Translations under genes and position numbers: made by a program
Origin: an uncultured Gammaproteobacteria bacterium
GTDB taxonomy: Bacteria; Pseudomonadota; Gammaproteobacteria; Arenicellales; JAANXG01
Assembly (NCBI GenBank): GCA_947259955.1
Contig: CAMYOI010000019.1
Span: forward strand, 1-45,254
Direction of reading: 5' to 3'
Length of the DNA stretch: 45,254 nucleotides
Shown here: positions 32,486-37,155 of the stretch, one piece after another
Numbering within the stretch: position 1 is the stretch's first letter
Layout of the letters: the number at the start of each line of letters is the position of its first letter
Notes under the pieces: generated by a model
What the model saw: the letters and a program-made list of their open reading frames with translations, nothing else
What the model was told of the DNA's origin: nothing
Database searches by the model: none

Positions 32486-33217
32486 TCAACGCCTGGTCCA
32501 GCGGCGAACCTCGGGTGTGTGCCGCCTGCTTACGTCGAGTTTGTCGTCAATCTCCCTGAGCAGAACGCGCCAGCGCCCCGACGGTTGTTTTTCTATACCC
32601 CGGATGTAGTCGACAGCCACGAGTGCGTTGCGGTGAATTCGAAGGAAGCGCTCCGAGAATTCTTCCTCCAGACTGACTAGAGAATCCTCGATGAGGTGCT
32701 GCTCGCTGGTGGTGCGCACCGTGACGTATTTATTGTCCGCCATGAAGTACACGATGTCCTGAACCGGAATCAATGTGATCTGACCTCGCATGTGCACACT
32801 GATATGGCTCCGTGAGTTGGAATCGTTCTGGGCTTTGCTGACCTCGCGCAGCTGCTTCGTGCTGACCTGCTTCGCTTTCTGCAGAGCGGCTGACAGACGA
32901 TCCTTGCGGATGGGCTTGAGCAGATAATCGATTGCGTTGACCTCAAACGCTTCCAGGGCATGCTGATCATAAGCCGTGGTAAAGATTACTGCAGGGGGTA
33001 TTTCCATCGATTGCAGGTGCATGGCCGCTTCCAGTCCGTCCATTACCGGCATGCGGATATCCATGAGCAGGCACTCCGGCTTGAGTTCCATGGTTTTCTC
33101 GATCGCCTCATTGCCATTCATGGCTTCTCCGACGATCAGGTGTTCACCTTCTTTTTCGATCAACTCGCGCATCCGGGCACGCGCAAGCTTCTCGTCATCA
33201 ACGACCAGAATCTTCAT
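32486..33217 (-). CDS. algR: LytTR-family response regulator, AlgR-like
   Basis: REC '[19 protein letters not shown]...[12 protein letters not shown]' plus LytTR '[15 protein letters not shown]'; upstream of hemC as in pseudomonads. Confidence 0.9.
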
Positions 33218-34347
33218 AGTGTTACACCTCCAAAGGCCGGGTGTTTTATTTCGACCGAAAAATGCTGCTGCGTCTGTTCGATATTGATGCTCGCATCATC
33301 TCCATACAGATCTTTAAGTCTCAATCGGATATTGTCCAGTGATACCTCCCGTTCCTGGTCTCGCCCAGTTTTTTCGGAAAGCACGGGATTTCGCACAAAT
33401 ATCCGCAGGTTTTTATCTTCCATGCTGATTTCGATATCAATTTCTCCACCCTCCTGGAGATGCTCGATGCCGTGTCGAATGGCATTCTCCAGCAATAGTT
33501 GCAGCATGAGCACAGGCGTTTTCGCCTGACGCGTTACTCCACTTACGTTCCAGTTCGTGTTCAATCTTTGTTCCAGACGAAGCTTTTCCAGCTTGAGGTA
33601 CTTCCTGGCGACTTTAACCTCGTTTTGAACGGGCACCAGATCTTTCCGCTCATCCAGCATCAACCTGAACAGGTCGGCCATATCCTCGATCGCGGCTTCG
33701 GCTTTTACCGGTGCACGTTGGGTCAGGCTGGCAATGATATTCATGCTGTTGAACAGAAAGTGAGGCCGTATTCTATGCTTCAGGATCTGGGCACGCGCCC
33801 GCTCCGTAGCCAATGTCGTCTTGCGAAGCTGATCGCGCGCCACGAAGTAGCGGAGCGCCATGGCGTTGATGATGGCGCTTACGATCAGGTTCCGCGCATG
33901 AAAATTCAGGTACCATTCGGGTCGATATGCGAACACATAGTCGAACGCGGCCAGGAGCCACAAGGAGAGCTCACCTACAAGCCATGTTATACACAACAGC
34001 ATGGCGTAGGTGAATAATAGTGCACGATTGCCCGGAAGGCGATTCAAATGTGGCCTTGCCAGGCATAGCGCGCAGACGCTGAGCAGCGCGATCCACTGCA
34101 TAAACAGCGAAATCAGCAACAAATCGTGGAAGATGTTGGCGGTTATCGGCGGAATGACGATTGTAAATATGATTGCCAGGAATTCCGCAAGCACCGCGGT
34201 GTTCAACACCATTTCCCCCCGGCAAAAATCCGGCAGCAAGCCTGAATCCGGAAGGGAGTTCCCCCAGTCGATATTCCTCTTAGGTCCCTCTCTCTTTGTC
34301 GCCCGGTGAAGATTCAATATGGATTGCATAGTTTGCGACTCAACCAC
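33214..34347 (-). CDS. AlgZ/FimS/LytS-type sensor histidine kinase (copy 1)
   Basis: 'HRIRPHFLFNSMNIIASL', 'LMLQLLLENAIRHGIEHL'; overlaps algR. Confidence 0.88.
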   Translation of the reverse strand: MVESQTMQSILNLHRATKREGPKRNIDWGNSLPDSGLLPDFCRGEMVLNTAVLAEFLAIIFTIVIPPITANIFHDLLLISLFMQWIALLSVCALCLARPHLNRLPGNRALLFTYAMLLCITWLVGELSLWLLAAFDYVFAYRPEWYLNFHARNLIVSAIINAMALRYFVARDQLRKTTLATERARAQILKHRIRPHFLFNSMNIIASLTQRAPVKAEAAIEDMADLFRLMLDERKDLVPVQNEVKVARKYLKLEKLRLEQRLNTNWNVSGVTRQAKTPVLMLQLLLENAIRHGIEHLQEGGEIDIEISMEDKNLRIFVRNPVLSEKTGRDQEREVSLDNIRLRLKDLYGDDASINIEQTQQHFSVEIKHPAFGGVTL

Positions 34348-35425
34348 GGACGATGGGCATTCTGATTTTTACGTAGTAGTTCCCCTGCTGCTCCAGGTTT
34401 TGCAACGTTGCCCTTCCCCCGAAGTGCCGGGACAGCCTTTCACGGACGTTGTCCATAGCGATGCGGTTTCCCCTCCTGTTATGGTTTGGATTAGCGACTT
34501 TCGGTACTGGATTGCTGATCATGATATTCAGGTCCTCGCCCTCGGACCATAGCTGGATATCCACGGTGCCTCCGGCAAAACTCGGTTCGATTCCGTGGTA
34601 AACGGCGTTTTCCAGTAGTGGTTGTAATGTCAGAGAGGGTATCAGCGCGCTGCGGGGGACGTTGGACGCCGTCCACTTGACCTGCAGGCGCTCCCCGAGA
34701 CGCAACTTCTCGATGTCGAGATACTGCCTGGCCAGTTCCCCCTCCGCCGTAATGGGGACCATTTTTCGCGCATCGGCGAGCAGCACGCGGAAAACGTCAG
34801 CCAGGTCCTGCAGTGCCTTCTCGGCCAGATCCGGATCGGATCGAATCAGACTGGCGACGCTGTTCATGCTGTTGAACAGAAAATGGGGTCGAATGCGGGA
34901 CTGCAGGGCCTGCAAGCGATCCTGCTGTTGTGATTCACTCCTGGTCTGAGCTCGCTGGTGGATGAATATGTATCTGAGGGTCATCGCGATGATCAGGACG
35001 CCGATGATGATCAGGCGAGCCAGGGTCGTATCGTGGTCGGGGGGCCATCGCTGTGCAGTGATCTCAGTGAGGTATAGGATGAATAGTATACCTTCGTAAA
35101 CGCCTACCACGATAAGCAGTAATACGACGAAGGTAACGGCTGTTTTGGGCACTACACCAAGGTTTGGCAGAGCGTTAGCGATGATTTTCAGCGCGACGAT
35201 GCTGAGCAGCGCCACCGTCTGGGTGAATGCGGTCAGAAGCAGGAAATCGTTCCAGGCTCCAGGGTTCAGATCGTCGTTGCGTGCTACCGCAAGGATGGTA
35301 GCGATAACCTGGGCGCCTATGAAGAAGCGTAACGTAATCGACGGGCTGGACAGGTCCAGGGAGAATCGTTCTTGGGGCCGTCGGTTTTCTCGCATATATG
35401 AATAGCCAAGCGTAGTCGACGTCAA
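34340..35425 (-). CDS. AlgZ/FimS/LytS-type sensor histidine kinase (copy 2)
   Basis: 'SRIRPHFLFNSMNSVASLI', 'LTLQPLLENAVYHGIEPSFAGG', 'RIAMDNVRERLSRHFGG'; overlaps copy 1. Confidence 0.88.
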   Translation of the reverse strand: MTSTTLGYSYMRENRRPQERFSLDLSSPSITLRFFIGAQVIATILAVARNDDLNPGAWNDFLLLTAFTQTVALLSIVALKIIANALPNLGVVPKTAVTFVVLLLIVVGVYEGILFILYLTEITAQRWPPDHDTTLARLIIIGVLIIAMTLRYIFIHQRAQTRSESQQQDRLQALQSRIRPHFLFNSMNSVASLIRSDPDLAEKALQDLADVFRVLLADARKMVPITAEGELARQYLDIEKLRLGERLQVKWTASNVPRSALIPSLTLQPLLENAVYHGIEPSFAGGTVDIQLWSEGEDLNIMISNPVPKVANPNHNRRGNRIAMDNVRERLSRHFGGRATLQNLEQQGNYYVKIRMPIVRG

Positions 35426-35508
35426 TGATAACCCGTCGGGATTCTGGGGCGCACTCCGGCCAAGTGTATCAGTATTGGTAATTCGCCCCGATTTTCGGGG
35501 AGCGGCGC

Positions 35509-35536
35509 AAAAAAAACCCCCCGGTAAACGGGGGGT
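35509..35536 (-). terminator. Intrinsic terminator, minus-strand
   Basis: Minus strand ACCCCCCGTTTACCGGGGGGTTTTTTTT: 7-bp G/C stem followed by a U tract. Confidence 0.85.
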
Positions 35537-35600
35537 CAGGTAACCTGATTCGGATACAGGTGGGGGTGTCTGAGGAAGGTGTCCCGAATCAGGGTATTCT
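35509..35600 (-). ncRNA. Candidate small regulatory RNA with C-rich loop
   Basis: Minus strand CCTGATTCGGGACA-[CCTTCCTCAGACACCCCCACC]-TGTATCCGAATCAGG stem-loop followed 14 nt later by the intrinsic terminator; no ORF accounts for it. 5' end not determined. Confidence 0.55.
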
Positions 35601-35766
35601 TTAGACGCTCAAATCAGTGTTATGGATCGTTGGAAGTTAGTCTAGGTCAGCCGTCGCGGAGGTGCAATGCGCCGTAGATAAGCGGGTTGCGGTGGCGGAT
35701 AAACGGCCGCTTCTGGTGCAAATTGCAGGCTAAGTTATACTGCCGATTTTTCAGAAGGTTGAGCCG

Positions 35767-37155
35767 ATGGTAACGACGAAACCCTGGGGAGGGAGGTTCT
35801 CCGAGCCCACCCACGAACTGGTCGAGCGATTCACCCAATCCTTGGATTGGGACCGTAGACTATACAAGTATGACATCATCGGCTCAATCGCGCATGCCCG
35901 TATGCTGGCGAGATCCGAAATTCTGAGCGTCGATGAATGTGATTCCATCGTGGCAGGCCTCGAGTCGATCGAGGCGGAGATCGATGATGGTGGCTTTTCA
36001 TGGTCGTCGGAGCTGGAAGACGTCCACATGAACATCGAAGCCGAGCTCACCGCGAAAATTGGCGAGCCTGGAAAGAAGCTCCATACCGGCCGATCCAGAA
36101 ATGACCAGGTTGCAACGGATATGAGGTTGTTTCTCAGAGATGCCGTCGATGAACAAATGCATCTGCTGCTGGTGCTACAGGGTCTATTGCTGGATGTCGC
36201 GGAGCGCGAGGCGGAAACGCCGATGCCCGGAGTGACTCATCTGCAGGTCGCCCAACCCGTAACCTTTGGTCATCATATGATGGCGTGGTTCCAGATGCTG
36301 GACAGGGACCGGCAACGATTGGCCGATGCACGCCGCCGGATCAACATCTCACCTCTGGGGTCGGCGGCCCTTGCCGGAACGTCTTTTGGGATAGACCGGG
36401 AGTTTACCGCGCGGGAACTCGGTTTCGATGCTCCGAGCGAAAATTCCCTGGACGCCGTTTCCGACAGGGATTTCGTCATCGAATACTGCAGCCACGCGGC
36501 ATTGTTGGCGGTGCATCTTTCCAGGATGGCCGAAGAGCTCATATTGTGGGCGTCGGAGCGTTACCGTTTCATCGAAATCGGAGACGCGTTCTGCACGGGG
36601 TCTTCCATCATGCCGCAGAAAAAAAATCCTGACGTGGCGGAACTGATCCGGGGCAAAAGCGGGGGCGTAGTCGGAAATCTGGTCAGTATGCTGGTTCTTG
36701 TGAAGGCACAGCCGTTGGCCTATAACCGCGACAATCAGGAGGACAAATCGCCCATGTTCGACACCGTCGATGCGGTTACCGGGAGCTTGCAGATATTCAG
36801 CGCCATGCTCCCGACCATAGAGGTCGATAGGGAACAAATGCGAAGCGCCGTGGAGAACGGATTTGCCACGGCCACGGATCTGGCGGAGTATCTTGTTGGC
36901 AAGGGTGTTCCGTTTCGGGATGCTCATGAAATCGTTGGCAAATCGGTCCGCTATTGTATCGACAACGATTTACGGCTCGGCGATCTGTCTATGCATCAAT
37001 TTCGGGAGTTCAGCGACGAAATTGGGGATGATGTGTATTCGGTATTGACCGTTGAGGGATCGATCCGGGCGCGCAATCATATCGGCGGCACCTCTCCGAT
37101 GCAGGTCCGGGCCGCTATCAGCCGTGCACGTGAACGGCTGGAAGCGAGTAAATAA
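35767..37155 (+). CDS. argH: Argininosuccinate lyase
   Basis: '[33 protein letters not shown]', '[28 protein letters not shown]'. Confidence 0.97.

Follow-up and report, generated by a model that had tools for sequence, protein, structure and literature searches.

AlgZR and PilSR both control type IV pili. The CcsR molecules ("cuckoo RNA") of Rhodobacter are multicopy small RNAs with a C-rich, anti-SD-like loop; they are alphaproteobacterial, their loop is of the CCUCCUCCC type, and their genomic setting is another one. In Xanthomonas, sX13 uses its C-rich loops to repress algR and genes of the type IV pilus (PMC3771888). The sequences bound by P. aeruginosa AlgR are the consensus CCGTTCGTC and the variant CCGTTTGTC (PMC4064291). 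LytTR regulators recognize 9-bp direct repeats that are separated from each other by 12 bp and from the downstream −35 element by about 10 bp, and the operons that encode them are often autoregulated (PMC6193735). The algZ promoter of P. aeruginosa is described as Vfr-dependent and as lying 23 bp upstream of algZ (PMC8787478). Within the literature covered, which was incomplete, we found no paper on a small RNA at argH–algZ.

The stretch of DNA analyzed here (the window, 45,254 nucleotides in full) contains the gene of a previously unnamed small RNA between argH and algZ/algR. The divergent neighbor, argH, occupies 35767..37155 on the plus strand (TIGR00838, 614 bits, above the cut-off). On the minus strand, two AlgZ-like sensor kinases, both assigned to PF06580, lie at 34340..35425 (His_kinase; in relatives, tblastn places matches to it next to the RNA) and at 33214..34347. 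They are followed by an AlgR-like response regulator at 32486..33217 (minus strand), which combines a receiver domain (PF00072) with a LytTR domain (PF04397) and which we propose as the activator; the gene order is algZ-algR-hemC. The tandem pair of AlgZ-like kinases before algR (window 33214-35425) recurs in families f1, f6, f12, f94, and f122.

The original prediction had placed a separate small RNA with a C-rich loop here, divergent from argH, and the structure, the conservation, and the compensatory changes described below support this view. The stem it described holds in detail: on the minus strand, CCTGATTCGG (35593-35584) and CCGAATCAGG (35553-35544) form a perfect 10-bp helix, which G-U, A-U, and C-G pairs lengthen around one bulged base, and the loop is indeed 21 nt, CCTTCCTCAGACACCCCCACC, with a single G. 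The same is true of the terminator, in which CCCCCCG (35535-35529), TTTAC, and CGGGGGG (35523-35517) are followed by 8 T (35516-35509); terminator-like sites were detected on the minus strand only, as had been claimed. The proposed span of 35500-35610 located the hairpin and the terminator correctly and was too short, the probable promoter and operator reaching to 35706. Folding of a 131-nt stretch, a check suggested at that stage, gave −43.1 kcal/mol with z = −4.65, and none of 200 dinucleotide-preserving shuffles was equally stable.

The display hairpin thus has its 5′ arm at 35584..35593 and its 3′ arm at 35544..35553 (both on the minus strand), and two-sided changes affect both arms, in 12 of the 13 pairs of helix 1 among 33 distinct sequences. 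Between the arms lies the C-rich pairing segment CACCTTCCTCAGACACCCCCACC (35559..35581, minus strand), which is antisense to the pilA leader discussed below. The intrinsic terminator, CCCCCCG-TTTAC-CGGGGGG-T8 (35509..35535, minus strand), has a fully (100%) paired helix in which 5 of 7 pairs show two-sided changes. From the promoter position and the terminator, we predict a small RNA of about 124 nt (35509..35632, minus strand), whose 5′ end is estimated near 35632, give or take a few nucleotides. It folds at −35.9 kcal/mol and scores 101 bits against the covariance model described below. The predicted RNA contains no ORF, its sole start-like codon, TTG, meeting a stop after 3 codons. The whole case for the RNA is comparative, and the transcript itself is a prediction from sequence.

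Sixty relatives were searched for the element. It is present in all f1 genomes except the small and incomplete G007, and also in f6 and f12, and several genomes hold additional copies whose flanking sequences are unrelated. Across 22 aligned f1 and f6 copies, the 23-nt loop hardly varies. A covariance model, R1, was built from the aligned f1/f6 copies; all 13 argH-linked f1/f6 copies align, and R1 finds matches in 12 f1 genomes. It also finds matches in f7, where the loop reads CCTTCCTCAAAGCACCCCCAC, weaker ones in f8, and, outside the order of the window, matches in f94 (G417 and G190, about 50 bits) and f122 (36 bits). In a model-guided alignment of 33 distinct sequences, two-sided changes occur in 17 of 20 base pairs, and 97.5% of the cells are paired; this alignment was fitted to R1, so the counts are biased toward the model, but the margin is wide nonetheless. 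The covariation score is 0.370 versus 0.121 in shuffles, none of 500 shuffles scoring as high, and a one-base shift of the partner strand lowers the paired cells from 97.5% to 55-61%. A lack of compensatory changes in homologous regions had been named beforehand as grounds for abandoning the small RNA; such changes were found in these 17 of 20 pairs. This conservation (0.370 versus 0.121, 0/500) rules out a chance origin, and the comparative evidence establishes the element as a real RNA gene.

A scan for the loop across 84,980 species returned 46 stretches, comprising uncultured gammaproteobacterial records and scattered matches in other phyla. The latter stand without the hairpin and look like chance. 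The loop gave no match in viral contigs, so there is no sign of a phage origin. The genomes compared are largely metagenome assemblies, and the genome of the window (G000) has an estimated contamination of 7.5%.

One copy of the RNA adjoins argH in seven families (f1, f6, f7, f8, f12, f94, and f122), usually between argH and algZ. According to tblastn with the window's own proteins, this copy is divergent from argH in f1, f6, f7, f8, f94, and f122; the f12 contig stops at the RNA, with algZ-algR-hemC on the opposite side. An algZ homologue lies on the far side of the RNA in f1, f6, f12, f94, f122, and one f8 genome (tblastn). No algZ match was found beside the argH-linked copy in f7 and in two f8 genomes, where some contigs stop near the RNA. 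Many genomes carry further copies unlinked to argH. Two of these (L034 3259-3354 and L043 4369-4461) precede, in the same orientation, a PilZ-domain gene and a GGDEF gene; such neighbors hint at a link to c-di-GMP signaling.

Several copies deviate from the usual arrangement. In G009:C31 (L048 / L203 2191-2340), the display hairpin is tandemly doubled ahead of one terminator, giving two identical C-rich loops. In G001:C137 (L045 4328-4346), the loop motif recurs alone and unchanged inside another hairpin (CAGAAAG...CTTTCTG), and the usual terminator is absent; it may be another RNA or, read from the opposite strand, a target. G012:C83 (L042 5333-5405) holds two decayed loop copies about 400 bp from an intact RNA copy, near a purA-like gene; these extra loop matches were considered as targets and rejected, being decayed copies of the RNA. 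In f7, a second and weaker R1 match adjoins a DSBA-domain gene and is without an AlgR-type operator (L246 1943-2035, L247 1916-2003, L248 2026-2111).

Upstream of the RNA and ahead of a predicted sigma-70-like promoter, the minus strand carries a tandem LytTR/AlgR-type operator whose first half, CCGTTTATC, lies at 35698..35706 and whose second half, CCGCTTATC, follows 12 bp later at 35677..35685, in the 9-12-9 geometry of LytTR operators. A predicted −35 element, TTGCAC (35662..35667, minus strand), starts 9 bp past the operator; it was picked by eye, and a consensus promoter scan did not return it. TTGC is kept at this position in all aligned argH-linked f1/f6 copies. After a 17-bp spacer comes a putative −10 element, TAGACT (35639..35644, minus strand), which appears as CCTAGACT or close variants in the argH-linked copies. 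The full arrangement, CCGTTTATC-12-CCGCTTATC, 9 bp, TTGCAC-17-TAGACT, fits the LytTR operator geometry. An upstream alignment of 13 argH-linked copies shows the conserved blocks CCGTTTGTC/CCGTTTATC and CCGCCCATC/CCGCTTATC, 21 bp from start to start, together with TTGC at the −35 position and a CTAGACT-like sequence at the −10 position.

The tandem site upstream of the RNA is the sole zero-mismatch one in the 45-kb window. Tandem CCGYYYRTC sites precede most argH-linked copies, with 1-2 mismatches in f94 and f122, 2 in f7, and 3 in f8. An operator-like site is also present at seven unlinked copies; its 2-3 mismatches fall mainly in the first half, and several unlinked copies have CCGCCCATC or a close variant as the second half. 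The operator is absent at three group-3 copies, at the G012:C132 and G006:C4 copies, and at the second f7 copies. Its presence at seven unlinked copies ties the site to the RNA, and not to argH or algZ. We infer that the AlgR-like regulator of the window binds the tandem site.

The C-rich loop has a counterpart in the leader of pilA. When the genome of the window was searched with TTCCTCAGACACCCCCACC, allowing up to 3 mismatches, exactly two places were found: the RNA itself and the opposite strand of G000:C77:1060-1078. There, 19 consecutive nucleotides of the pilA leader match the complement of the loop exactly, the leader carrying GGUGGGGGUGUCUGAGGAA. The gene that follows encodes a PF00114 pilin and stands beside genes for a sigma-54 activator and a PilS-type kinase (pilR/pilS-like). 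Complementary pilA leaders occur in 11 genomes, G000 included, with the site just past a sigma-54-type promoter. Duplex energies range from −42.9 to −26.4 kcal/mol for these 11 leaders. By comparison, another 15 pilin leaders from these genomes give −22.7 to −11.4 kcal/mol. A duplex of −26.4 kcal/mol or better was obtained in 0.4% of 6000 random 140-nt windows, and one of −30.6 kcal/mol or better in 0.1%. In most pilA leaders, the site lies about 24-57 nt from the predicted transcription start; in the two weakest it lies up to about 80 nt in, or 106 nt with a looped-out stretch. Between the pilA promoter and the gene, it is chiefly the pairing site that is conserved across genera. A single changed base in G001 and G002 still gives a U-G pair, one C/A mismatch persists in the leaders of genus g3, and pairing is only partial in G004 and G023. 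The target site is mostly paired in the predicted fold of the pilA leader.

The loop had originally been credited with pairing to purine-rich ribosome-binding sites. That claim found no support in this form: the sole conserved long complementarity detected is to the pilA leader, 59-122 nt before the start codon, and searches of 14 genomes with each half of the loop yielded no further conserved long site. Direct blocking of the pilA ribosome-binding site was rejected as well, as constraining the site to be unpaired left the modeled accessibility nearly unchanged across the 11 leaders. Two other readings of the loop matches were rejected: sites with the loop only are the complement in pilA leaders and not a second RNA family, and a leader ORF overlapping the G000 site is not conserved. 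The original reading was right about the small RNA and missed two things, the operator of the AlgR type and pilA as a target.

The complementarity has clear limits. No recognized pilA site was found in G003, G006, and G012 despite the presence of the RNA, two of these three being incomplete assemblies. In f7 and f94, where the loop differs, searches allowing up to 3 mismatches gave no target, and duplexes with the pilin leaders found in f7, f8, f94, and f122 are not above chance. There is no loop-target co-variation within f1/f6, where the loop barely varies. By sequence comparison, the pilA pairing is a property of the f1/f6/f12 lineages and not a general one of the RNA, the RNA locus being older.

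We propose, as the probable explanation, that the locus encodes an AlgR-controlled, trans-acting small RNA that base-pairs with the pilA leader, alters the stability or processing of the mRNA 5′ end, and so adjusts pilin supply. The gene would yield an RNA of about 90-125 nt made of the display hairpin, with its C-rich loop, and, directly after it, the RNA's own terminator. AlgZ/AlgR would most likely switch on its transcription via the tandem LytTR-type site, and the exposed loop would pair with a G-rich stretch of the pilA 5′ leader, about 24-80 nt from its beginning. Most likely, pilA mRNA would be altered in its stability or in the processing of its 5′ end, through cleavage or protection of the duplex; we favor this over blocking of the ribosome-binding site because the pairing site lies well away from the start codon and the modeled accessibility of the ribosome-binding site is nearly unchanged. 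Overall, AlgZR would adjust the major pilin supply. By analogy with sX13, repression is slightly favored over activation.

A different origin of the short RNA has to be weighed against this proposal. If AlgR autoregulated algZR from the same promoter, the RNA could be a prematurely ended transcript of an attenuator in the algZ leader. It shares its strand with algZ, whose start is about 80 nt further downstream, the operator and promoter precede both, and autoregulation is common in LytTR operons (PMC6193735). However, the same hairpin and terminator recur in unlinked copies, an operator-like site accompanies seven of these copies, and no alternative antiterminator fold was seen. Attenuation of the kinase leader, which had been raised as an alternative from the start, therefore does not suffice as the whole story, given copies away from algZ and argH-linked ones, in f7 and two f8 genomes, without a downstream algZ match (some contigs stopping nearby). 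It would also leave the complementarity of the loop to pilA unexplained, and we regard it as unlikely.

The choice of target can be questioned in two further ways. The RNA may be a broad anti-Shine-Dalgarno regulator resembling sX13, which would use short seeds on many G-rich ribosome-binding sites and count pilA as one member of its regulon. The C-rich loop is also found in distant families with differing loops, and the 4C/5C loops of sX13 act on G-rich motifs and repress type IV pilus genes and algR (PMC3771888). Yet a near-invariant 23-nt loop facing a 19-20-nt site in one gene exceeds what short seeds need, and the search of 14 genomes with each loop half, which addressed long sites, returned no other conserved one; such a role seems improbable, although the RNA may have additional targets. 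Conversely, the effect could run in the opposite direction, with an abundant pilA leader serving as a sponge that titrates the RNA away from real targets elsewhere. The position of the pairing site, in the leader and away from the ribosome-binding site, and the greater age of the RNA relative to the pilA match would suit this idea, but no other conserved long target was found in the 14 genomes, and we consider it very unlikely.

More tentatively, and with somewhat less than even confidence, the argH-algZ small RNA, present in at least three gammaproteobacterial orders, could be an AlgR-induced RNA arm of AlgZR whose loop is retuned in each lineage to a different surface-behavior mRNA (pilA in the lineage of the window), with extra copies carrying the AlgR operator along. 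If the regulation of pilA proposed above is true, it would connect AlgZR directly to the major pilin through RNA, in a mostly uncultured gammaproteobacterial group, and one regulator of surface behavior would also tune pilus production via RNA. The loop and the pilA leader site allow predictions at the level of single bases, which are open to reporter tests.

With respect to known RNA families, the statement that no named family is recognizable here agrees with the search of Rfam 15, which gave no match at the gathering threshold; the analysis yields a covariance model for an RNA family missing from that release. Matches at relaxed thresholds (such as anti-hemB, Phe leader, and asX2) were rejected as sub-threshold and of low confidence. 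The anti-hemB family (RF02837, Burkholderia RNA 7) resembles the present RNA in having a hairpin with a C-rich loop followed by a terminator. However, the score of 23.7 bits against a gathering cut-off of 49.5 means that the RNA is not a member, and the extra hairpin of that family is not properly formed in its alignment. True Rfam anti-hemB matches occur in f7 genomes about 1.5 kb from the argH-linked RNA (L016 2541-2642, minus strand, 50.6 bits; L167 2505-2604, plus strand, 54.1 bits). GGA motifs of a CsrA/RsmA sponge (RsmY/RsmZ type) are absent from the display loop and the terminator loop. CcsR shares the multicopy character and the C-rich loop, and is set apart here by its description.

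In P. aeruginosa, AlgZ/AlgR likewise lie by argH and hemC, operators are of the CCGTTCGTC type, and type IV pili are under their control (PMC4064291, PMC8787478). AlgR acts there on the fimU minor-pilin operon, unlike the major-pilin leader proposed here (PMC4064291, PMC8787478). The P. aeruginosa argH-algZ region enters this comparison through published papers only, and the parts of the source that describe it mention no small RNA (PMC8787478). A close functional parallel is sX13, which presents C-rich loops on stems, acts on G-rich motifs, and is linked to type IV pili (PMC3771888); here that link takes the form of complementarity to the pilA leader. The RNA may well work like sX13, a parallel in mode of action. 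In contrast to the three C-rich stem-loops of sX13, this RNA has one C-rich hairpin and a terminator; sX13 uses short 4C/5C motifs near translation starts, whereas the match here is long and far upstream of the start codon; and, unlike sX13, this RNA adjoins algZR.
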